Shown in pieces: positions 16,031 to 29,571 of a DNA stretch of 43,757 bases. Source of the DNA: Planctomycetota bacterium. GTDB taxonomy: Bacteria > Planctomycetota > MHYJ01 > JACPRB01. The DNA is taken from NCBI GenBank assembly GCA_035574235.1, contig DATLZA010000027.1:1-43757 (forward strand), in the 5' to 3' direction. The translations under genes were made by a program, and so were the position numbers. How positions within the stretch are numbered: the stretch's first letter is position 1; every line of letters starts with the position of its first letter. The notes beneath the pieces are model-generated. The model saw only the letters and a list, made by a program, of their open reading frames with translations. It ran no database searches and was not told where the DNA came from.

Positions 16031-17212
16031 ATGCCCCGGGACTTCGTCTCCAGGAAGGCCGCCCGTTTCACCGAGAGCGTCATCCGGGAGATGACCCGCC
16101 TGGCCGACCGCCACGGGGCGATCAACCTGGCTCAGGGCTTTCCGGACTTTCCGGCCCCCGCGGCGCTCAAGCGCGCCGCCTGCGAGGCCATCCGGCGCGA
16201 CGTCAACCAGTACGCCGTCACCTGGGGCGCGCCCGCCCTCCGGGAGGCTCTGGCCCGCAAGTACAAGAAGTACAACCGAATGGACGTGGACCCTGACCGA
16301 AATATCACCGTCACCTGCGGCGCCACGGAGGCCATGATCTCGGCGCTCCTGGCGGCGGTCGATCCGGGGGAGGAGGTCATCCTTTTCGAGCCGCACTACG
16401 AGAACTACGGGCCCGACACGATCCTCTCCGGCGCCACGCCCCGCTTCGTGCATCTGCATCCTCCGGACTGGCACCTGGACGAGAAGGAGCTGGCGCGCGC
16501 CTTCAACCGGCGCACGAAGGCGATCGTCCTGAACACCCCCAACAATCCCACGGGGAAGGTGTTCACGCGCCGGGAGCTCGAGACGATCGCCCGGCTGTGC
16601 CTGAAGTGGGACGTCCTGGCGGTCACGGACGAGGTGTACGAGCACATCGTCTACGAGGGGGAGCACGTTTCGATCGCGTCGCTCGACGGCATGGCGGAGC
16701 GGACGATCACCACCTCGTCGCTCTCGAAGACGTTTTCGATCACGGGCTGGCGGCTCGGATACTGCATCGCGCCCGAGCGGCTGAGCGGCGCGATCCGGAA
16801 GGTGCATGACTTCCTCACGGTGGGGGCGCCGCATCCGCTCCAGGTCGCCGCGGCGCGGCTTCTGGACCGGCCGGGGACGCTCTTCGAGGACCTGCCGCGC
16901 GAGTACCGGGAACGCCGCGAGGTCTTCTACCCGGCGCTCGAGGCGGCCGACTTCCGTCCGTTCCGGCGTCCCGCCGGCGCGTACTACGTGATGTGCGACG
17001 TCTCGCGGTTCGGGTTCCCGGACGACACGGCCTTCGCCCGGTGGTTCGTGCGGGAGGCCGGGATCGCCGTGGTTCCGGGCAGCTCTTTCTACGTGGATCC
17101 CGCGCGGGGGCGCCACCTCGTCCGGTTCGCCTTCTGCAAGCGCAAGCCCACGCTGCGCGAGGCGGCGCGGCGCCTGGCCCGCCTTTCCGTACCGGCCGCC
17201 GCCCGCTCATGA
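16031..17212 (+). CDS. PLP-dependent class I/II aminotransferase
   Basis: A 393-residue fold-type I aminotransferase of the kynurenine/methionine aminotransferase type. It has the INLAQGFPDFP opening, the LNTPNNPTGKVF motif, DEVYEHIVY, and the PLP-binding SSLSKTFSITGWRLGY with Lys233. These enzymes are promiscuous, using aromatic amino acids, Met or Gln, so the substrate cannot be set from sequence. Its stop overlaps the murQ ATG (ATGA), which puts it in an operon with muropeptide recycling; the reason for that link is not evident. Confidence 0.88.
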   Translation: MPRDFVSRKAARFTESVIREMTRLADRHGAINLAQGFPDFPAPAALKRAACEAIRRDVNQYAVTWGAPALREALARKYKKYNRMDVDPDRNITVTCGATEAMISALLAAVDPGEEVILFEPHYENYGPDTILSGATPRFVHLHPPDWHLDEKELARAFNRRTKAIVLNTPNNPTGKVFTRRELETIARLCLKWDVLAVTDEVYEHIVYEGEHVSIASLDGMAERTITTSSLSKTFSITGWRLGYCIAPERLSGAIRKVHDFLTVGAPHPLQVAAARLLDRPGTLFEDLPREYRERREVFYPALEAADFRPFRRPAGAYYVMCDVSRFGFPDDTAFARWFVREAGIAVVPGSSFYVDPARGRHLVRFAFCKRKPTLREAARRLARLSVPAAARS

Positions 17213-18120
17213 AGCGCGATTTCGACCGGCTCCTCACCGAGCAGCGCCATCCGCGCACGCGGCGGATCGACGCGATGCCGGTGTCCGAGATCCTCGCCAC
17301 GATTCACCGCGAGGACGCGCGGGTGGCCGGCGCGGTGGCGGCCGAGCGGCCGCGGCTGGCGCGGGCGGTCGAGCTGGTCGTCGAGCGGCTGCGGCGCGGC
17401 GGGCGGATCTTCTTCGTGGGGGCGGGAACGAGCGGACGTCTGGGGGTGCTCGAGGCGGCCGAGATGCCGCCGACCTTCGACACGCCGCCGGAGCTCGCCC
17501 AGGCGGTCATGGCCGGCGGTCCGGAGTGCGTCTGGGCGAGCAAGGAGGGGGCCGAGGACGACGCCGCCGACGGCGCGCGGCAGATCCGGCTCCGCAAGAT
17601 CCGCCCGGCGGACGTCGTCGTCGGGATCGCCGCCAGCGGGGTGACGCCGTTCGTGCACGGGGCGCTCCGGGAAGCCCGCCGGCGGGGCGCGGGGACGATC
17701 CTGGTTGCCTGCAACCGCCGGGGGGTGCCGCCCCGGCCGGCGGACGTCGTCGTCGCCCCGCGGGTGGGTCCGGAGGTGATCGCCGGATCCACGCGCCTGC
17801 GGGCCGGCACCGCGACCAAGATGGTGCTCAACGCCCTCACGGTCGCCTCGATGATCCGGCTGGGCAAGGTCTACGAGAACCTGATGGTGGATCTCCAGAC
17901 GCGCTCCGACAAGCTTCACGCGCGGGCGCGGCGGATCGTGCGGATTCTGACGGGGGTTTCGGAGCGGCGCGCGGCGCGGGCGCTGCGGGCGGCGGGAGGC
18001 CGGTGCAAGACGGCGATCGTGATGCTCCGGCGGGGCGTGACCCGGGAGGAGGCGGAGCGGCTCCTGGAGGCCGCGGGAGGGATGCTCCGGCCGGTCCTGG
18101 AGGACGGCGGCGCGCGATGA
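17209..18120 (+). CDS. murQ: N-acetylmuramic acid 6-phosphate etherase
   Basis: Cleaves the lactyl ether of MurNAc-6-phosphate to GlcNAc-6-phosphate and D-lactate, a peptidoglycan-recycling step. The 303-residue SIS-domain protein has FFVGAGTSGRLGVLEAAEMPPTF and the later segment GPEVIAGSTRLRAGTATKMVLN, both strong MurQ signatures. It overlaps its neighbours by ATGA on both sides, the next being anmK, the preceding step of the same pathway. A working MurQ-AnmK pair implies a murein wall or recovery of foreign murein. Confidence 0.95.
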   Translation: MKRDFDRLLTEQRHPRTRRIDAMPVSEILATIHREDARVAGAVAAERPRLARAVELVVERLRRGGRIFFVGAGTSGRLGVLEAAEMPPTFDTPPELAQAVMAGGPECVWASKEGAEDDAADGARQIRLRKIRPADVVVGIAASGVTPFVHGALREARRRGAGTILVACNRRGVPPRPADVVVAPRVGPEVIAGSTRLRAGTATKMVLNALTVASMIRLGKVYENLMVDLQTRSDKLHARARRIVRILTGVSERRAARALRAAGGRCKTAIVMLRRGVTREEAERLLEAAGGMLRPVLEDGGAR

Positions 18121-19202
18121 TCCGGGCGCTGGGGCTCATGTCCGGAACGTCCGCCGACGGGGTTTCGGCGGCGCTCGTGCGGATCGCGGACCGGCGGGTG
18201 GAGCTTCTGGCGTTCCGGACGGAGGCGTATCCGAAGGCGCTGCGGGAGCGCGTGCGGGCGGCGGCGGGGGCGCGGGCGCCGGAGCTCTCGGAGCTTCACG
18301 CGGATCTGGGGCGGTTCTTCGCGCGGGCGGCCCGGCGGATCCTGGCGGGGCGCCGCGCGGACGTGATCGGCTCGCACGGCCAGACGGTCTGGCATGAGCC
18401 GGGGCGGCACACGCTTCAGCTCGGGGAGCCTTCCTTCATCGCCCAGGAGACGGGGATTCCGACCGTGGCCGATTTCCGGCCCGCGGACGTGGCGGCGGGG
18501 GGGCAGGGCGCGCCGCTCGTGCCGTATTTCGACTGGTTCGTCTTCGGCGGCCGGCCGGTGGCGCTTCTGAACCTCGGAGGCATCGCCAATTTCACCTTCG
18601 TGGGGCGGACGCTCCGGGAGACCACCGGCTTCGACACGGGTCCGGGCAACGTTCTTCTGGACGAAGCGATGCGCCGGGCGTTCGGCCGGGAGTACGACGC
18701 CGGCGGCCGGGTGGCGGCGTCCGGGACCATCGATCTTCGGATGCTCCGGCGGCTGGATCATCCCTACTTTCGGAAGCCTCCGCCGAAGTCCACGGGGCGG
18801 GAGCTTTTCGGGCCGGCCTTTCTCGAGGAGCGTCTGGGACGGGAGCTCCGGCGGCGTCCCGCCGACGCGGTGGCGACGCTGACGTTTTTCACGGCGCGCA
18901 CGATCGCGGACGCGTTCGCGCGGTTCGCGCCGCGTCCGGTGCAGGAGGTCGTGGTGTCGGGCGGCGGGGCGTTCAACCGGACGCTGGTGCGTCATCTGGA
19001 ATGGATGCTCTGGCCGGCGGCGGTGCGGCCGATCGACGTCTACGGCTTTCCGCCCCTGGCGCGGGAGCCGGCGGCCTTCGCGCTTCTGGCGGCGCAGACC
19101 CTGCGGGGCCGTCCCTCGAACGTGCCTTCGGCCACCGGGGCGCGCCGCGCGGTGGTCCTGGGGAAGATCGTGCCGGCCGGGAGGGGCGGGGTTCCGTCCT
19201 GA
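18117..19202 (+). CDS. anmK: Anhydro-N-acetylmuramic acid kinase
   Basis: Phosphorylates and opens 1,6-anhydro-MurNAc to MurNAc-6-phosphate, the MurQ substrate. The 361-residue protein shows the ATP/sugar-kinase motifs LGLMSGTSADGV, IGSHGQTVWH, NLGGIANFTF, FDTGPGNVLLDE and VVSGGGAFNRTL. Its end is 30 bp from the end of the convergent minus-strand binding-protein gene, without a clear terminator hairpin between. Confidence 0.95.
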   Translation: MIRALGLMSGTSADGVSAALVRIADRRVELLAFRTEAYPKALRERVRAAAGARAPELSELHADLGRFFARAARRILAGRRADVIGSHGQTVWHEPGRHTLQLGEPSFIAQETGIPTVADFRPADVAAGGQGAPLVPYFDWFVFGGRPVALLNLGGIANFTFVGRTLRETTGFDTGPGNVLLDEAMRRAFGREYDAGGRVAASGTIDLRMLRRLDHPYFRKPPPKSTGRELFGPAFLEERLGRELRRRPADAVATLTFFTARTIADAFARFAPRPVQEVVVSGGGAFNRTLVRHLEWMLWPAAVRPIDVYGFPPLAREPAAFALLAAQTLRGRPSNVPSATGARRAVVLGKIVPAGRGGVPS

Positions 19203-19232: not shown

Positions 19233-20798
19233 TCATCGCTCCGGAAGCGGGGCCGGACGGGACGTCGGCGGGACCAGCCGCAGGGCCGGCGTTTCGCCGC
19301 CCCGCAGGATCGAACGGACGATGCCCTCGCGGTCGATGGTCTGCGAAAGCGCCCGGCGGACGCGGGGGTCGTCGAGCGGCCGGACGCTCGTGTTGAAGAC
19401 GTAGTAGTACACGGCGTTGTAGGGCGCCGCCACGTGGTCCGGACGGGTGGCATAGGTGTCGACCGCGTCGGGAGGGGCGCGGAAAAGCCAGTGGCAGGCG
19501 CCGGATTCGTAGAGCCGCCAGGCCGCGTTGTCGTCGGCGACGCTCAGGAAGACGAACTTCGCGAGCTTCACCTCCCGGGCCGCCCGGTAGAGCGGGTTCT
19601 TCACGAACACCTTCCGGTCGTTGAAGGTCCACGACTCCAGACGATACGGGCCGTTGTGGACCATCGTTCCCGGGCGGACCCACTCGGCGCCGTGGCGCTC
19701 CACGGTGGCGCGGTGGACCGGGAAGAAGACGTTCAGGCAGAGAAGCTCCGGGAAATAGGGCGCCACGTGCGCCAGCTCCGCCACGAGCGTCCGGTCGTCC
19801 GTCGCGCGCACGCCCAGGCTCGAGGGCGGCGCCTCGCCGCGCGCGACCGCCCGGGCGTTGCGCAGGACGAAGAGCCGGTCCACATAGGGCGACGCCGTGC
19901 GGGGATCCGCCGCGCGCCGCCACGCCCAGACGAAATCGTGGGCCGTGACCGGATCGCCGTTCGACCAGCGGGCTTCCCGGAGCCGGAAGGTCCAGGTCTT
20001 TCCGTCCGGGGAAACCTCCCAACGCTCGGCGGCGGCGGGGACGGGACGGGCGTCCTTCGGGTCGGGCGCGGCCAGCCCCTCGAAGAGATGCATGAGGACC
20101 TTGAGGCCCGCGATGTCCTGGGAAAGCGCCGGATCGAGCGAGGCGGGTTCCTCGGCGCCGTTGAACACGAGGACGCCGTCGGCCGGCGCGCCGGGACCCT
20201 CCAGGGTCACGCCCTGAAGCGGGTGCATGTCCCGGACGTTCGGGTAGACCCCCTTGACGAACGGCTTGATGTAGTTGTGGGACACATAGTGATAGATCGG
20301 AGCCACCGCGGCCTCGTCCAGAAGCAGGCGCTCCGCCTCGGCCAGAAGACCGAGCCGCCGCGCCGCGTCCGGCTCGGCGTCCGCCGCGTCCATGAGCCGC
20401 TCGAAGGCGTCGGAACTCCATCCGGCGGCATGGGCCCGGCTGTCGCGCCGGAAGAGGGCCAGGAACGCGTGGGGGTCGAGGTACTCCCCGATCCAGGCGC
20501 GGCGGGCGATCTGGTAGTCGCCCGCGGCCAGGCGGTCGAGGTACACCCTCCACTCGACGTTCCGGAGGTCGACGTCGACGCCCAGCGCGCGCCGCCAGTT
20601 CTCCTGGATGCGCGCGGCGATGCGGGTGTGCCAGTCGGCGCGGTTGTACAGGATCGTCAGGCGGGGAAATCCGCGGCCGTCGGGGAATCCCGCCTCCGCC
20701 AGGAGCCGGGCGGCGGGCGTGCGGGGCGGGGCGGGGGCGTCCGAGCGGCCGCAGGCGGCCAGAGCCGCGGCGGCGGCCAGCACAGCGAGGGCTCGCAT
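19233..20798 (-). CDS. Oligopeptide-binding lipoprotein, circularly permuted (copy 2)
   Basis: A 521-residue SBP_bac_5 (OppA/DppA) family lipoprotein, lipobox LAAC with Cys16. The order of segments is unusual. Residues about 30-199 match the C-terminal segment of ordinary OppA (RLLAEAGFPDGRGFP, then IARRAWIGEYLDP, then PIYHYVSHNYIKPFVKGVYPN). Residues about 207-521 match the normal N-terminal and middle parts (PASLDPALSQDIAGLKVL, SPDGKTWTFRLREARWSNG, VHNGPYRLESW, DPRVRRALSQTIDREGIV). The normal termini are joined in the middle and new ends lie just before LLAEAG. It ends the operon, 11 nt after the OppC-like permease. Confidence 0.85.
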   Translation of the reverse strand: MRALAVLAAAAALAACGRSDAPAPPRTPAARLLAEAGFPDGRGFPRLTILYNRADWHTRIAARIQENWRRALGVDVDLRNVEWRVYLDRLAAGDYQIARRAWIGEYLDPHAFLALFRRDSRAHAAGWSSDAFERLMDAADAEPDAARRLGLLAEAERLLLDEAAVAPIYHYVSHNYIKPFVKGVYPNVRDMHPLQGVTLEGPGAPADGVLVFNGAEEPASLDPALSQDIAGLKVLMHLFEGLAAPDPKDARPVPAAAERWEVSPDGKTWTFRLREARWSNGDPVTAHDFVWAWRRAADPRTASPYVDRLFVLRNARAVARGEAPPSSLGVRATDDRTLVAELAHVAPYFPELLCLNVFFPVHRATVERHGAEWVRPGTMVHNGPYRLESWTFNDRKVFVKNPLYRAAREVKLAKFVFLSVADDNAAWRLYESGACHWLFRAPPDAVDTYATRPDHVAAPYNAVYYYVFNTSVRPLDDPRVRRALSQTIDREGIVRSILRGGETPALRLVPPTSRPAPLPER

Positions 20799-20809: not shown

Positions 20810-21682
20810 TCACGACGGTCGCTGCTGGACGTCGAAGGCGTCCCGCAGGCCGTCCCCGATCGAGTTCAGGCAGTACAGCGTCAGCGCCAGGGCCGCCCCG
20901 GGAAAAGTCACCAGCCACCAGAGGTTGCGCTCCGTGCCGAGCGCCTTGGCGCCCTCGCTGATGAGGACTCCCCACGACGTCTCCGGTTCCGAAACCCCGA
21001 GGCCCAGAAAGGAGAGGAACGATTCCGTCAGCATCGCGCCCGGCACGGAAAGCGTCGCGTAGACGATCACGGGTCCCAGGACGTTGGGCACCATGTGGCG
21101 CACGATGATGGCGGGCATTCCCGCCCCCAGCGCGCGCGCGGCCTCCACGAACTCCCGTTCCCGCAGCGAAAGCACCTGCCCGCGCACGATCCGCGCGAGC
21201 GTCAGCCAGCCGAAAAGGCCGATCACGAGGAAGACCCACGCGAGGCTCCGGGACTCGACGAGCGCCATGATGACGATGATGAGCAGGATGTGGGGGAGTC
21301 CGTAAAGGACGTCCACCACGCGCATCATGAAGGCGTCCGTCCGGCCTCCCGCGACCGCCGAGGCGGCGCCGTAGGCGGTCCCGACGAGCACGCTCACGGT
21401 GGTGGCCAGGAGCGCCACGGCGAAGGAGACCCGGCCTCCGCGGAAGACGCGCGAAAAGAGGTCGCGGCCGAGCGCGTCGGTGCCCATCCAGTACGTGGAG
21501 TTGGGGCGGCCCAGGGTGTAGGTGAAGTCCTGGTCGCGGTAATCGTGCGGGCTGGCCCAGGGGACGACCCACGTCGCCAGCCCGAGGAGCCCCAGAAGCG
21601 CCGCCGAAACGAGGGCGCGCCGGTTGCGCCGGAACCGGCGCAGGGCCAGGCGGGTCGGGGACCGGCTTTCCTCGGCTCCCAT
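20810..21682 (-). CDS. Oligopeptide ABC transporter permease, OppC type
   Basis: A 290-residue inner-membrane permease of the DppC/OppC family. It has a first membrane helix near residue 25-45, the periplasmic YWMGTDALGRDLFSRVFRGGR motif and the cytoplasmic EAA loop EFVEAARALGAGMPAIIVRHMVPN, about six helices in all. Its ATG overlaps the stop of the OppB-like gene by one base. It should pair with that gene to form the pore. No OppD/OppF ATPases are in the window. Confidence 0.92.
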   Translation of the reverse strand: MGAEESRSPTRLALRRFRRNRRALVSAALLGLLGLATWVVPWASPHDYRDQDFTYTLGRPNSTYWMGTDALGRDLFSRVFRGGRVSFAVALLATTVSVLVGTAYGAASAVAGGRTDAFMMRVVDVLYGLPHILLIIVIMALVESRSLAWVFLVIGLFGWLTLARIVRGQVLSLREREFVEAARALGAGMPAIIVRHMVPNVLGPVIVYATLSVPGAMLTESFLSFLGLGVSEPETSWGVLISEGAKALGTERNLWWLVTFPGAALALTLYCLNSIGDGLRDAFDVQQRPS

Positions 21683-22620
21683 CAGTGGACCCTCACCCGC
21701 GGGTCGAGGATCCCGTAGAGGAGGTCGACCGCGAAGTTCATGGCGATGACGATCGCCGTGTAGACGAGAACGCAGGCCATGATGAGGTTCATGTCCCGGT
21801 TGAGGGCGGATTTCACGAAGTGCTGGCCGAGGCCCGGGATCGCGAAGACCGACTCGACGACGAGCGATCCCGTGACGAGGACGGCCACCATGGGGCCGAG
21901 GTAGGAGACGACGGGCGTGACGCCGTTCTTGAGGGCGTGCCGGAGAAAGACGGCGCGTTCCGGCAGGCCCTTCGCGCGGGCGGTGCGGATGAAGTCCTTA
22001 TGGAGGACGTCGAGCATTCCGGCGCGCGCGAGCCGAGAGATGTAGGCGATATGGACCAGGGCGAGCGTCACGGACGGAAGCACGAGCTTCTTGAGTTCCG
22101 AAAGGCGCGTCCAGTCCTCGGGCCAGAGCGCCGCCGGAAGCCAGCCCAGGCCGATGGCGAAGACGAGGACGAGGATCGGTCCGAGGAGGAAGTTGGGTAC
22201 GCAGATGCCGGCGATCGAGAGGCTCATGGCCAGGGTGTCGGGCCAGCGGTTCTGGCGGGCGGCGGCCAGGAGGCCCAGGGGCAGGCCGATGCCGAGCGCC
22301 AGGAAGGCCGCCAGCGCCCCCAGGACCGCCGATTTCCTCAGGCCCGGCCAGACGATATCGTTGCAGCTGAGGTCGCGGTAATAGAGGGAGGGGCCCAGGT
22401 CCCCCCGGACGTAGCGCGCCATCGTGCGGGCGTACTGGACGAGGATCGGCCGGTCGAGTCCGTAGAACGCCTCGAAGTTCCGCAGCACTTCCGGGTGGAC
22501 GGCGCGCTCCGTGGTGAAGGGGCTGCCGGGGGCGATGCGGGTGACGGCGAAGGAGAGCGTGGCGACGACCCAGAGGGTGAGGATTCCCTGGAGGAGGCGG
22601 CGCAGGGTGAACGCGAGCAC
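21682..22620 (-). CDS. Oligopeptide ABC transporter permease, OppB type
   Basis: A 312-residue inner-membrane permease of the DppB/OppB family. It starts MLAFTLRRLLQGILTLWVVA, carries the GLDRPILVQYARTMARYVRGDLG region between helices 1 and 2, and has the EAA loop DFIRTARAKGLPERAVFLRHALKN. The C-terminal ILDPRVRVH ending is typical. It follows the upstream binding-protein gene by 6 nt and overlaps the oppC-type gene. Confidence 0.93.
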   Translation of the reverse strand: MLAFTLRRLLQGILTLWVVATLSFAVTRIAPGSPFTTERAVHPEVLRNFEAFYGLDRPILVQYARTMARYVRGDLGPSLYYRDLSCNDIVWPGLRKSAVLGALAAFLALGIGLPLGLLAAARQNRWPDTLAMSLSIAGICVPNFLLGPILVLVFAIGLGWLPAALWPEDWTRLSELKKLVLPSVTLALVHIAYISRLARAGMLDVLHKDFIRTARAKGLPERAVFLRHALKNGVTPVVSYLGPMVAVLVTGSLVVESVFAIPGLGQHFVKSALNRDMNLIMACVLVYTAIVIAMNFAVDLLYGILDPRVRVH

Positions 22621-22626
22621 GGGAGG

Positions 22627-24234
22627 TCAATCCTCCGCGTCCAGGCGGGGGCTCGTGTAGTCCTTCCAGGCGGGCGGGACGAAATGGTAGGCGGGCTTCT
22701 GTCCCTGCCGCAGGACGTGCCGCACGAGGGCTTCCCGGTCCACCGCGAGGGCCAGCGCGCGGCGCACGCGGACGTCGCGGAGGGGACCGTGGCGGACGTT
22801 GAAGGAGTAAAAGTAGGTGGCCAAGTAGTCGCCCCCGCGGTAGTCCGGCCGCTTCATGATCTCCTCGATCTGGTCGATCGGAAGGGCGGTGATCCAGTCG
22901 ATGGTTCCTTCCTTATAGAGGTTCCAGGCGGTGACCCGGTCTTCGATGGGCAGGAACTTGATCCGGGGCTGGCGGACGGCGGCGGCGTTCCAGTAGCGCG
23001 GGTTCCTTTCCAGGGTCAGGGAATCCGTGGGCTTCCACTCCGCCAGACGGAAAGGGCCGTTGGTGACGATATGCTCCGGCCGGGTCCAGGCGGCGCCGTG
23101 CCGTTCGAGGACATCCTTGCGGACCGGATAGAACGTCATGAAGCCGGTCAGGTCCAGAAAGTAGGGGCAGGGGTGTTCGAGTTCCACCTCGAGCGTGCGG
23201 GCGTCCCGGGCGCGGACGCCCACGGTCGAAGGGTCGGAGGTCTTTTTCTCGTGGAAGGCCTGGGCGCCCTTGACGGCGAAGAGGATGTGGGCGTAATCGG
23301 TAAGCGTGGCCGGGTCGAGGGCCCGCCTCCAGGCGTAGACGAAATCTTCCGCCGTGACGGGACGGCCGTCGCTCCAGGCGGCCTCGCGCAGATGGAACGT
23401 ATATTTCTTTCCGTCGGGGGAGATGTCCCATCGTTCGGCGACGCCGGGGCGCGGCTCGAGGGTGCGGGGGTCCGGGGTGGCGAGGCCCTCGAAGAGGCCG
23501 ATGAGGACGCGGTATTCGAGGGCGCCGCGGGCGAGCGCGGGGTCGAGGGTCTGGACTTCGCTTCCGTTGTGGATGACGAGGGTCTCGCGCCCCTCGGCGC
23601 GGACCTCGGCGAGGGGATGGATGTCCTGAACGTTCTCGTAGAGACCGCGGACGTGCTCCTTCCAGCAGTTCTGGCTGACATAGAAGTAGAGGGGCACCAC
23701 GGCCGCCTCGCGCAGGAGGATCTTTTCGGCGCGGGAAAGGAGCGTCGAACGGCGGGCGCGGTCGGGTTCGGCGGCGGCCTCGCGGATCAGCCGGTCGTAT
23801 TCCGGGTGCGACCATCCGGTGTTGTTGTTGCCGCTGGCGGAGGTGAACATTTCGAGGAAGGTGTTCGGATCGCGGTAGTCGGCGATCCATCCGCGGCGGG
23901 CGATCTGGTAGTCGAGAGCGCTCAGGCGGTCGAGGTAGATCTTCCATTCGACGTTGCGCAGCTCGACGTCGATTCCGAGGTTCTTGCGCCACATCTGCTG
24001 GAGGGCGGCGGCGACTTTCTTGTGGGCCTCGTCGGTGTTGTAGAGGACTTCGAGCGTGGGGAAACCGCGCCCGTCGGGGTAACCGGCTTCGGCGAGAAGG
24101 CGGCGGGCGCGTTCGAGGGCGGCGCCCGCTCCGGCGGCGGGGGGCGGTTCCTTGCGTCCTTCGCAGCCGGCCAGGACGAGGGCCGCCAGGAGGGCCGAAC
24201 GCGCGGCCCGGGGGAAGTTCGCGGGCGGGCGCAT
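22627..24234 (-). CDS. Oligopeptide-binding lipoprotein, circularly permuted (copy 1)
   Basis: A 535-residue SBP_bac_5 family lipoprotein, lipobox LAGC with Cys24. Its parts are permuted relative to E. coli OppA. Residues about 44-211 are the usual C-terminal segment (RRLLAEAGYPDGRGFP, LLYNT-like VLYNTDEAHKKVA, IARRGWIADYRDP, PLYFYVSQNCW, NVQDIHPL). Residues about 217-535 are the usual beginning and middle (LVIHNGSEVQTLDPALARG, SPDGKKYTFHLREAAWSDG, VTNGPFRLAEW, DVRVRRALALAVDREALV, then FVPPAWKDY at the end). Nothing large is missing, so the binding fold could form. It leads the operon from a near-leaderless promoter and is a paralogue of the gene at 19233. Confidence 0.87.
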   Translation of the reverse strand: MRPPANFPRAARSALLAALVLAGCEGRKEPPPAAGAGAALERARRLLAEAGYPDGRGFPTLEVLYNTDEAHKKVAAALQQMWRKNLGIDVELRNVEWKIYLDRLSALDYQIARRGWIADYRDPNTFLEMFTSASGNNNTGWSHPEYDRLIREAAAEPDRARRSTLLSRAEKILLREAAVVPLYFYVSQNCWKEHVRGLYENVQDIHPLAEVRAEGRETLVIHNGSEVQTLDPALARGALEYRVLIGLFEGLATPDPRTLEPRPGVAERWDISPDGKKYTFHLREAAWSDGRPVTAEDFVYAWRRALDPATLTDYAHILFAVKGAQAFHEKKTSDPSTVGVRARDARTLEVELEHPCPYFLDLTGFMTFYPVRKDVLERHGAAWTRPEHIVTNGPFRLAEWKPTDSLTLERNPRYWNAAAVRQPRIKFLPIEDRVTAWNLYKEGTIDWITALPIDQIEEIMKRPDYRGGDYLATYFYSFNVRHGPLRDVRVRRALALAVDREALVRHVLRQGQKPAYHFVPPAWKDYTSPRLDAED

Positions 24235-24242
24235 CGCAGGCC

Positions 24243-24271
24243 ATCGTAGGCCCGTCCCGCGGTCAAGTCAA
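24243..24271 (-). promoter_or_regulatory. Promoter for the peptide-importer operon
   Basis: On the minus strand TTGACT (24271-24266), a 17-nt spacer and TACGAT (24248-24243) form a good sigma70-type promoter. The -10 ends 8 nt before the ATG at 24234 and no Shine-Dalgarno sequence is present, so the first gene is probably read from a leaderless or nearly leaderless mRNA. Confidence 0.6.
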
Positions 24272-25875: not shown

Positions 25876-25926
25876 TAACTCCGCAACAGCTTGGAAACGC
25901 TGCGATCCTCACGACTGGGAGGCCGT

Positions 25927-27582
25927 ATGCGTCGTCTCGCGGTGGCGTTCGGGACGTGGGTGCTGCTGGCCGAGGCGGCCGCAGGGGTCCCCCAGGAGCG
26001 CCGGCCGGAGCCGGCGGCGCCTCAAGACCGCGTGGACCTGGCCGGGGTGCTCGACTCGTGGTACAAGATCGAGCAGGCGGACCGGCACGTCGGGTTCGTC
26101 CACGAGTTCATCGAGCGCGTCCCGGCGGGCAATCCGTGGCGCTACAACTATCACGTCGACGCCGAGCTGGAGGTCATGGTCCCGGATCCCCAGGAGCCGG
26201 GGAAGGAAGTGCCGCTCGTTGAATCCATCCGGGTGCGCGCGCGTCTCGACGACACTTACGCGCCGGTGGACTGGCAGCAGCGCAGCCACGTCAACGGCGT
26301 GGACGTGGATCTCCTGGCGACGGTGGACGAGAGCGGGCAGCGCACGCTCGAGGTGGTTCTCTCGGCGACCGATCGCCGGCAGTTCCCGGTGCCGCAGGAG
26401 GAGGAGGTCTACTTCTCGCGGTCGCTCATGTTCATCGCGCTGCGGCAGAACGGGAGCCTGGCGCGTCCCGGCACGCGGCGCGTGTTTCTGGTCCAGCCGC
26501 AGGCGCAGGGGCCGCCGGTCATCGACCTGTCGATCGAGGTGCGAGAGACGGTGAAGCGCGAGTACATGGGCAAGAAGGAGGTTCCCGTCACGCGGGTGTC
26601 GTATCTCAAGCCGCCGCCGGCGATGAACCGCGACTGGGAGCTCATGGACGCGTTCATCGACAAGTTCGGCCGCATCGTCGAGGAGACGCGGCGGGGCGGC
26701 CTGCGCATGATCCTGGTCAAGGGCGAGGAGGAGGCGGTGGGCCATGAGACCCGCCTGCGCCAGAGGGCGCGGCGGGACCCCTTCCGCAAGGACCTGGCCA
26801 TGACGCTGCGGGCCAAGGAGAAGGAGGGCGCCGGGGCCGGGGAGAAGAAAGAGGACGTCCGCATCACCGACGCCGGCCAGGTGCAGGCGCGGCTGAAAGA
26901 GGGGCAGAAGCTTCTGGAGGACCTTCGGAAGGCCCGCGAGGAGAACCGGGAAGCGGAGGGGGAGCAGATCTATCAGAAACTCCTGGCCCTCCACCAGGCC
27001 CTGCGCAAGTTCCTCCAGGAACGGCCGCAGGGGCAGGATGTGCAGAGGCAGGCCGAGGAGCTGCGCCGCCAGACCGAGGAGGTGTGGGGCGGCGCCGAGC
27101 GCCTCATGAAGAAGCTCCGGCTCGTCTACGTGCGCGTCATGGAGCTTTTCGACCGGGATGAGTGCGACGAGATGGCCAAGGGGGTCGAGGAGCTGCGCAA
27201 GGCGCAGGACCGGCCCGAGCTTCAGGATACGCCGCAGCTTCTGCTGCTGGCCGGATGGGTGGCCAAGGTGGAGCCGCTCGTGGCCAAGTGCCGCACCCGG
27301 ATGGAGCTGGCGCGCAAGAAGATCGTGCTGACGGGGACGATCGCCTACGAGGAATGGACCTTCCAGCCCATCGATCCGTCGGTTGCGGTTTTCGGGCACG
27401 TGGCGGGCGCGCCCCAGGAGGTCCGGTTCATCAAGCCGAGCCGGCTGGCCGTCATCAACGACAAGGTCTACCGGGTCGGCGACGTCGTGGAAGGCGAGGG
27501 GGTGCGGGTCGAGAAGATCTGGCCCCACGGCGTGCAGGTTTCGCTGCGGGAGGAGACCCGCGACGTCGGCATCCGCCAATAA
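25927..27582 (+). CDS. Exported coiled-coil protein with PilP/GspC-like C-terminus
   Basis: A 551-residue protein with a signal peptide (RRLAVAFGTWVLLAEAAAG) from the ATG at 25927, preceded by a GGGAGG site. Residues 30-280 are a beta-rich domain I do not recognise (DSWYKIEQADRHVGFVHEF). Residues about 310-420 are charged coiled-coil. The last 70 residues (SVAVFGHVAGAPQEVRFI, then AVINDKVYRVGDVVEGEGV) resemble the small beta domain of PilP/GspC-type proteins that touch the secretin. It is directly followed by the secretin gene, which supports a role as a periplasmic assembly or docking partner of that channel. Confidence 0.65.
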   Translation: MRRLAVAFGTWVLLAEAAAGVPQERRPEPAAPQDRVDLAGVLDSWYKIEQADRHVGFVHEFIERVPAGNPWRYNYHVDAELEVMVPDPQEPGKEVPLVESIRVRARLDDTYAPVDWQQRSHVNGVDVDLLATVDESGQRTLEVVLSATDRRQFPVPQEEEVYFSRSLMFIALRQNGSLARPGTRRVFLVQPQAQGPPVIDLSIEVRETVKREYMGKKEVPVTRVSYLKPPPAMNRDWELMDAFIDKFGRIVEETRRGGLRMILVKGEEEAVGHETRLRQRARRDPFRKDLAMTLRAKEKEGAGAGEKKEDVRITDAGQVQARLKEGQKLLEDLRKAREENREAEGEQIYQKLLALHQALRKFLQERPQGQDVQRQAEELRRQTEEVWGGAERLMKKLRLVYVRVMELFDRDECDEMAKGVEELRKAQDRPELQDTPQLLLLAGWVAKVEPLVAKCRTRMELARKKIVLTGTIAYEEWTFQPIDPSVAVFGHVAGAPQEVRFIKPSRLAVINDKVYRVGDVVEGEGVRVEKIWPHGVQVSLREETRDVGIRQ

Positions 27583-27615: not shown

Positions 27616-29571
27616 GTGGGAGGGATCAGCCGTCCGTCCGGGCTCGGAATTTTTCGGAGAACGCTTGCCATGATCGGCGTCCGCCTTTCGCTCGCCGTGT
27701 TCGCCGCGTCGGCCCTGACCGCCGCTCCGGCCCGGGCGCAGCAGGAGCCCCCTCCGGCTCCGCCGGCCGGCGGCGCCGGGGCTCAGGAGATGGACCCCCG
27801 CGCCAAGGCCATCCGGGAAGCCTACGAGGAACGCCTGCGCCGCGAGCGCCAGCAGGTCACCATTCGCGTGCGCAACGCGACGGTCGGCCAGATCGTCGAG
27901 GAGTTCCGGCGCCAGACCGGCTGGAACATCGTCGTGGACTACCGGAACATCCCCGACGACTACCGGGTGGACGAGTTCATCGTCGAGAACGAGCCGGCGC
28001 GCCGGGCGCTGGAGGCCTTCGCGGCCAAGGCGGAGCTCTCGATCGAGGACGTCAGCCCCACCCTCATCATGCTCTCGCGGCCGCCGCGGCTCACCTTCAA
28101 CTTCCGCGACGCGGACGTCAAGGTGGTCATCGACATGATCGCGCGGGTCTCCGGCGCCAACATCATCGTGGCTCCGGACGTGAAGGGATCGATCACCCTT
28201 TCGATCAACAACGTTCCCTGGCAGGAGGTTCTCAACTCCGTCGTCAAGACGCTCGGATTCGTCACGGTCCGGGAAAACTTCGGGATCATCCGCATCATTC
28301 ACCAGGACGAGCTGCTCAAGCAGATGGAGACCCGGGTCTTCCGGCTCCGGTACATCCAGCCGCCGCCCACCTACACGGCCAAGGTGGAGGAAGGCAAGCT
28401 CATCAGCGGCCGGCCGATCCAGCCGCCCCAGCAGATCGAGGAAGTGCTGCGCCGGTTCGTCCTCAAGCAGACCCTGGAGACGGTGCTTTCGCGCAACGCG
28501 GCCGGCCAGGTCCTCGGGAAGCTCGACTTCGACCCCCAGACGAATTCCTTCATCGTGCGCGACACGAAGGTGACCCTCGACAAGATCGGCGAGATCATTT
28601 CGCTGCTCGACGTGGAGCCGGAGCAGGTGCTTCTGGACGTCAAGTTCGTCTCGACGACCAACGAGGATCTGCTGACGTTCGGAGTCAACTGGGACCTCGG
28701 CGGACAGGGGGGCGCCACGGTGTCCAGCCGCATCCTGCCTCCCTCGACCGTCGTGGATCCCGTGACGAGCCAGGTCCTCTCCGGCAAGATCACCAAGCTT
28801 CCCTTCGGGTTCGGAAACGAGCTCCACGCGCCCGGCGAGCAGTTCTTCCTGACTCAGTACGACATGACGATGACCCTCCGGGCGTTCAAGCAGGACCGGT
28901 TCTCCCGGCTGCTTCAGGAGCCGACGCTGGCCGTGGCGGACAACACGGAGGCCACGATCTTCGTGGGCGAAACGATCAGCTACGCCGAAGTGCGCACCAC
29001 GACCAACCAGTTCGGCGGGCTGGAGTTCTCCCTCGGCGAAGCTCAGAAGTCTCCCGTCAAGGTGGGCTTCCAGCTCTTCGTGATCCCCAAGATCGTCGCC
29101 GACTCGAACAAGGTGATCCTGACGATCATTCCGCAGAACGACTTCCTGTCCGGACAGTCGGGCGTGGCCGCGGTGCCGGGCTTCGAACGCTTCACCCTCG
29201 TTTCGAACGGCGCCCCGCAGAGCATCGACCTGCCGCGGATCTCGACGACCACGCTGGTGACCAAGCTCGTTCTGGAGAGCGGGCGGACGGCGATCCTCGG
29301 GGGACTGGTCGTCGAGCGTTCGACCTTCGAGGACCGGGGGATTCCGATTCTGAAGGACATTCCGCTGGTGAACTACCTCTTCAAGCAGCGCAACGACACG
29401 ATCCGCAAGGAGCATCTCCTCATCTTCATCACGCCGCGCATCGTGCGCTCGGGGCAGGGCCCCTCGCAGGATCTGCAGCGGCAGCTGCGCCTGAGGGAAG
29501 AGCAGGAGCGGCAGGAGCTCGAGGAGCTGCGCAAGAAGCAGCAGGAACAGGAAAAGAAAGCGCCGAAGTAG
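27616..29571 (+). CDS. Secretin (GspD/PilQ family) outer-membrane channel
   Basis: Ring-forming channel of type II secretion or type IV pili. The protein has a signal peptide ending in APARAQ, STN/N-domains (VTIRVRNATVGQIVEEFRRQTG; FRDADVKVVIDMIARVSGANIIV), and the secretin core (VLLDVKFVSTTNEDLLTFGV, then ISTTTLVTKLVLESGRTAILGGL, then DIPLVNYLF and LLIFITPRIV). A Gln/Glu-rich tail ends it. The GTG at 27616 has a strong GGGAGG site 6 nt upstream and gives 651 residues. The ATG at 27670 gives 633 residues with a shorter, more usual signal; either may be right. Confidence 0.9.
   Translation: MGGISRPSGLGIFRRTLAMIGVRLSLAVFAASALTAAPARAQQEPPPAPPAGGAGAQEMDPRAKAIREAYEERLRRERQQVTIRVRNATVGQIVEEFRRQTGWNIVVDYRNIPDDYRVDEFIVENEPARRALEAFAAKAELSIEDVSPTLIMLSRPPRLTFNFRDADVKVVIDMIARVSGANIIVAPDVKGSITLSINNVPWQEVLNSVVKTLGFVTVRENFGIIRIIHQDELLKQMETRVFRLRYIQPPPTYTAKVEEGKLISGRPIQPPQQIEEVLRRFVLKQTLETVLSRNAAGQVLGKLDFDPQTNSFIVRDTKVTLDKIGEIISLLDVEPEQVLLDVKFVSTTNEDLLTFGVNWDLGGQGGATVSSRILPPSTVVDPVTSQVLSGKITKLPFGFGNELHAPGEQFFLTQYDMTMTLRAFKQDRFSRLLQEPTLAVADNTEATIFVGETISYAEVRTTTNQFGGLEFSLGEAQKSPVKVGFQLFVIPKIVADSNKVILTIIPQNDFLSGQSGVAAVPGFERFTLVSNGAPQSIDLPRISTTTLVTKLVLESGRTAILGGLVVERSTFEDRGIPILKDIPLVNYLFKQRNDTIRKEHLLIFITPRIVRSGQGPSQDLQRQLRLREEQERQELEELRKKQQEQEKKAPK

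Follow-up and report, generated by a model that had tools for sequence, protein, structure and literature searches.

Natural circular permutation is already known among the substrate-binding proteins (SBPs) of cluster B ABC importers. Tp0684/MglB-2 of Treponema pallidum, a lipoprotein SBP assigned to a "Cluster Bc", is naturally permuted with its fold and ligand binding kept, and its authors suggested an anchoring advantage of the permutation (PMC4990184). For SBP_bac_5, the family of the oligopeptide-binding protein OppA, we found no such case described: the literature searched held neither a link between circular permutation and OppA nor a permuted oligopeptide-binding or SBP_bac_5 protein. 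The first-pass annotation of the locus, made from sequence alone, had called a permuted SBP_bac_5 protein a non-standard arrangement as far as known. By sequence, every solved SBP_bac_5 structure that was listed matched as an ordinary collinear chain, and no PDB chain in permuted order was present among the best 60 listed matches of the two queries, P0001 and a Bacillota protein.

Permuted chain order and operon

The window, by which we mean the whole stretch of 43,757 nucleotides that was analysed, contains the features listed below.

24243..24271, minus strand: sigma-70-like promoter candidate TTGACT-17-TACGAT before SBP-A (consensus match only)
22627..24234, minus strand: SBP-A, permuted OppA-type substrate-binding lipoprotein, 535 aa (ORF, Pfam, phmmer)
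24163..24174, minus strand: lipobox L-A-G-C, SBP-A residues 21-24 (sequence)
23620..24117, minus strand: first block of SBP-A, residues 40-205, equivalent to OppA from ~341 to the C-terminus (phmmer)
23587..23619, minus strand: joint of old C-terminus and old N-terminus, residues 206-216 (phmmer and sequence)
22669..23586, minus strand: last block of SBP-A, residues 217-522, equivalent to the OppA N-terminus up to ~321 (phmmer)
21682..22620, minus strand: OppB-type permease (Pfam BPD_transp_1; 46% to E. coli OppB)
20810..21682, minus strand: OppC-type permease (Pfam OppC_N and BPD_transp_1)
19233..20798, minus strand: SBP-B, second permuted OppA-type lipoprotein, 521 aa, 49% identical to SBP-A (Pfam and comparison)

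The reading frame of SBP-A is open and complete. Comparison with Salmonella OppA (1b05) by phmmer aligned residues 211-522 of SBP-A with OppA 7-321 (248 bits) and residues 41-197 with OppA 342-497 (126 bits), showing that the two stretches are swapped: the equivalent of 342-497 comes first and that of 7-321 second. The Pfam profile PF00496 gave the same swap on the minus strand, positions 264-368 of the profile preceding positions 1-257. By both methods SBP-A is not collinear with SBP_bac_5 or OppA. Membership of SBP_bac_5 is nevertheless met with 320.2 and 277.9 bits against a family cut-off of 32.4, and the homology of the permuted proteins to the family is not in doubt; they are a permuted variant of SBP_bac_5 and not ordinary members.

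At the joint (residues ~205-216, ...HPLAEVRAEG-RETLVIHNGSE...) a normal-looking C-terminus is fused to a normal-looking N-terminus by a linker of a few residues, the ordinary-type tail NVQDIHPLAEV being followed within a few residues by the ordinary-type head TLVIHNGSEVQTLDP. The first block begins ...ALERARRLLAEAGYPDGRGFP, and the protein ends in ...VPPAWKDYTSPRLDAED, at a point where normal relatives carry on with ...VPPGLAGYSPPARPLRDLPRARELLAGAGFPQGRGFP. Only the OppA loop ~335-341, the site of the new ends, has no clear counterpart in SBP-A; nothing is duplicated, and the loss is limited to a few loop residues. In chain order, SBP-A is an OppA-type SBP_bac_5 protein that has been circularly permuted in nature. 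The first-pass annotation had claimed that the C-terminal OppA segment comes first and the OppA N-terminus second, that essentially the whole family sequence is present together with a normal lipobox, and that the lobe which is contiguous in OppA contains the new ends. The first two claims held, and the third agrees with the mapped break. An order collinear with OppA, which would have refuted it, was looked for with phmmer and Pfam, and the order is non-collinear. Absent from that annotation were the other permuted gene and the operon, as well as the conservation and the additional cases described below.

SBP-B is a paralogue of SBP-A, and its blocks are permuted alike. The oppB and oppC genes are located between the two, and because the overlaps or gaps between neighbours amount to only a few bases, we read SBP-A, oppB, oppC and SBP-B as one operon. 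The adjoining OppB and OppC permeases that mark an Opp ABC importer are thus present, and indeed oppB and oppC adjoin the permuted gene in every permuted locus examined. The second mark, OppD and OppF in the operon, is not met here: no OppD/OppF-like ATPase gene was found on the 43.7-kb window contig. Such ATPases do adjoin the permuted gene in one genome of another class (G224) and in Bacillota. The genome of the window also holds a normal-order SBP_bac_5 gene, on a separate contig.

The second hexamer of the promoter candidate ends 9 bases upstream of the SBP-A start codon (ATG); an mRNA made from this promoter, if it is used, would be nearly leaderless. On the plus strand, a 563-aa reading frame without a Pfam match (25891-27582) lies before a gene for a GspD-like secretin (27616-29571).

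Conservation within the phylum and predicted fold

A database search for the same order, which the first-pass annotation had proposed, returned 11 genes in 7 genomes of the window's phylum, from at least six genera, and in addition a group in Bacillota. Three genomes from three other genera of the window's family (G001, G003 and G004) carry both permuted genes beside oppBC, both copies being kept in four genera of this family. G016 and G017, from another family of the same class, have one permuted gene each, as has G224, from another class of the phylum. All 11 genes matched the joint profile A2 over its full length with 297 bits or more, whereas no other match listed from 392 genomes of the phylum exceeded 145 bits, and those covered about one half of it. 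A2 is a sharp separator of permuted and normal proteins, shown on the same 11 genes from which it was built. Among the relatives found by short peptide patterns (n = 57), all those with both blocks in one frame have the normal order. The SBP-A of G003 (locus L019) has an insert of ~65 residues in the N-block, mostly charged and alanine-rich, and in G004 (locus L140) a divergent normal-order SBP (27%) is convergent to the permuted SBP-B.

The window is one contig of a 203-contig draft genome, and a chimeric contig uniting pieces of two normal oppA genes has to be considered. Against such an artefact, the joint is present twice in the window and again in six other genomes, at 45-66% identity and always beside oppBC. 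Codon-position GC is similar in both SBP-A blocks and in oppBC, and it is uniform across the joint. Because the joint is shared by both window paralogues and by nine more copies from six other genomes, misassembly at this place, the other outcome that would have refuted the early claim, is excluded.

The structure prediction that had also been proposed was run with AlphaFold2, with an input in which the permuted proteins were aligned together with separate block fragments from normal-order relatives. The whole chain of SBP-A was predicted as one confident fold (pLDDT 93.4, pTM 0.89; 492 of 535 residues at or above 90). A Foldseek search, which follows chain order, aligned this model with OppA structures over ~314 columns at 1.2-1.6 Å rmsd and a TM near 0.55. 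This is the size of the longer block, as expected of a permutation. That SBP-A folds as one unit is hence a prediction of the model; the match to OppA covers only these columns, and there is no order-independent superposition.

The equivalents of the OppA pocket residues Tyr109, Asn366, His371, Arg413, Trp416, Asp419 and Tyr485 are kept, so that SBP-A meets the peptide-pocket criterion of an OppA-type SBP. Arg404, Glu32 and Lys307 of OppA are not kept, and Arg404 is missing also from the normal-order relatives of the window's phylum. The SBP-B group has Glu at the position of Asp419, from which we infer a possible shift in specificity. Peptide binding and transport by the permuted proteins are likewise inferred, and we have no binding or transport data.

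Bacillota permutants and the number of origins

In Bacillota, the phylum of Clostridium tepidiprofundi, genes from 9 of 394 genomes aligned with the full length of the joint profile, at 155-175 bits. No spanning match to the junction profile at 1e-33 was detected in 368 genomes of Verrucomicrobiota or in 389 genomes of Pseudomonadota; for each genome the 8-9 best candidates were scored, and weaker permutants could escape. The best listed matches in plasmid records fall in two or three pieces and are mostly annotated as ordinary OppA. The Bacillota permutants have the C-block followed by the N-block with a longer linker, and their break lies after the helix KAKKFLEAGLKELGY, at OppA ~356. Where examined they head oppABCDF operons, and AlphaFold2 gave a pLDDT of 89.4 and a pTM of 0.82 for one of them. 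One permuted Bacillota gene (loci L186 and L193, genome G1139) contains an internal TGA, which makes it a pseudogene or reflects a sequencing error.

For the SBP tree that spans the phyla, the sequences were rearranged into a common order first. The Bacillota permutants are nested among normal-order Bacillota proteins (97% SH-aLRT), and the AU test rejected a single clade of all permuted proteins (p = 0.0009). From these trees we conclude that OppA-type proteins were permuted independently at least twice. This recurrence in two phyla is the more surprising part of the finding.

A third origin, in G224, is likely because its breakpoint and its permease lineage differ; it is not shown. The break of G224 lies at OppA ~356, compared to ~335-341 in the window lineage, and two OppD-like ATPase genes are located beside its permuted gene. 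The OppB of G224 groups with the normal-order operons of its own class, and the OppB tree rejects a grouping of the phylum's permuted operons into one clade (p = 0.005). A clade of G224 and the Bacillota permutants is rejected as well (p = 0.0006). On the SBP tree alone, G224 and the window lineage as one clade were not rejected (AU 0.39).

This last result is one of two points in favour of a single ancient permutation ancestral to all permuted proteins, G224 and Bacillota included; the other is that no more than about 20 residues separate the breaks. Both tree tests that place all permuted proteins, or G224 and Bacillota, together speak against it, as do the nesting in Bacillota, the OppB tree and the unequal breakpoints, and we regard it as very unlikely. 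Independent permutation remains the preferred reading. One may go further and propose that family 5 SBPs were permuted at least three times independently, always with the old ends fused in lobe 1 and the chain opened in a ~20-residue stretch of lobe 2, which would be a hot spot for rewiring, and that the relocated ends, in some lineages with the lipid anchor, may alter how the loaded protein docks on OppBC. For this bolder reading we see as much reason to doubt as to believe.

Proposed function and origin, and comparison with known systems

Very likely, SBP-A and SBP-B function as the peptide-binding lipoproteins of an Opp-type ABC importer, and their genes are circularly permuted from ordinary oppA; binding and transport are inferred. 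The importer operon would comprise SBP-A, OppB, OppC and SBP-B, with the ATPases presumably encoded elsewhere. In this model the original termini of OppA meet within lobe 1 and a loop of lobe 2 provides the new ends; the chain would form the usual clamshell, bind short peptides and hand them to OppBC. We take the break at OppA ~335-341 to lie in domain III, the domain limits being general knowledge, and because of this position it is lobe 2 that is discontinuous in the permuted chain and lobe 1 that is continuous; OppA has it the other way round. The lipid anchor of the window family would then pull on lobe 2 instead of lobe 1. No clear lipobox is present in G016, G224 and the Bacillota permutants, and for this reason an anchoring advantage cannot be the general reason for the permutation.

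As for the origin, tandem oppA copies may have fused and lost their outer halves, with a signal peptide newly gained or retained. Tandem pairs of normal-order oppA are common in the relatives and could thereby supply this classical route of fusion followed by outer-half loss; an intermediate of fusion and loss was not found. Three Opitutae loci (L057, L068 and L069) contain four OppA-type genes of normal order, arranged as two close pairs ~2 kb apart.

Alternatively, the permuted proteins could have lost their role in transport and be paralogues that are decaying or have been neofunctionalised. The two copies per operon in family f1, the greater divergence of SBP-B with its change of Asp419 to Glu and the internal TGA in the G1139 copy point in this direction. 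Against it, four genera keep both copies, in each case together with oppB and oppC, the pocket residues of SBP-A are retained, and no SBP gene other than the permuted one was seen next to oppBCDF in Bacillota. We consider decay very unlikely and retain the working importer.

A different question concerns its ligand. On the plus strand, a MurQ-like gene with SIS domains (17209-18117) and an AnmK gene (18117-19199), both peptidoglycan recycling genes, are convergent on SBP-B. AnmK lies near the operon also in G001 and G004, and the best structural matches include MppA and DppE. One may speculate that the importer has cell-wall (murein) peptides as its special substrates, and not general oligopeptides; this idea concerns only the ligand and is compatible with our explanation. 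The neighbouring genes suggest this weakly: they are convergent and outside the operon, and in the examined DNA of G003, G016, G017 and G224 no AnmK gene was found next to it. Arg404, common to E. coli OppA and MppA, is absent, which is insufficient alone to decide on the recognition of L-Ala-gamma-D-Glu-meso-DAP. We think a murein specialisation is unlikely.

The permutants in intact operons indicate that the clamshell tolerates a change of the lobe that bears the chain ends, and OppA-type proteins underwent this change more than once at nearly the same place. As homologues of permuted and of normal order share about 50% identity, they can be compared directly in folding, in ligand closure and in docking, and the natural break points offer sites tested by nature for binding-protein biosensors. 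Because Pfam scores the permutants as ordinary SBP_bac_5, profile-based annotation hides them; the swap is visible only in the order of the matched stretches.

Among known systems, MglB-2 is the nearest precedent, but it belongs to the sugar-binding cluster B and to another family than SBP_bac_5. Our proteins do not have the cluster B sugar-binding fold that defines Cluster Bc; both sequence and fold searches place them in SBP_bac_5/OppA. Among the nearest solved structures are two murein tripeptide binders, MppA of E. coli and DppE of Bacillus subtilis, which unlike the permuted proteins are collinear chains. OppA and MppA (SBP_bac_5, cluster C) share with the permuted proteins the family, the pocket residues, the adjoining oppBC, the export signal and, by prediction, the fold, with 42-43% identity between OppA and SBP-A over the structurally aligned part. 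They differ in that the permuted proteins are circularly reordered, with their ends in lobe 2 and the old termini fused.
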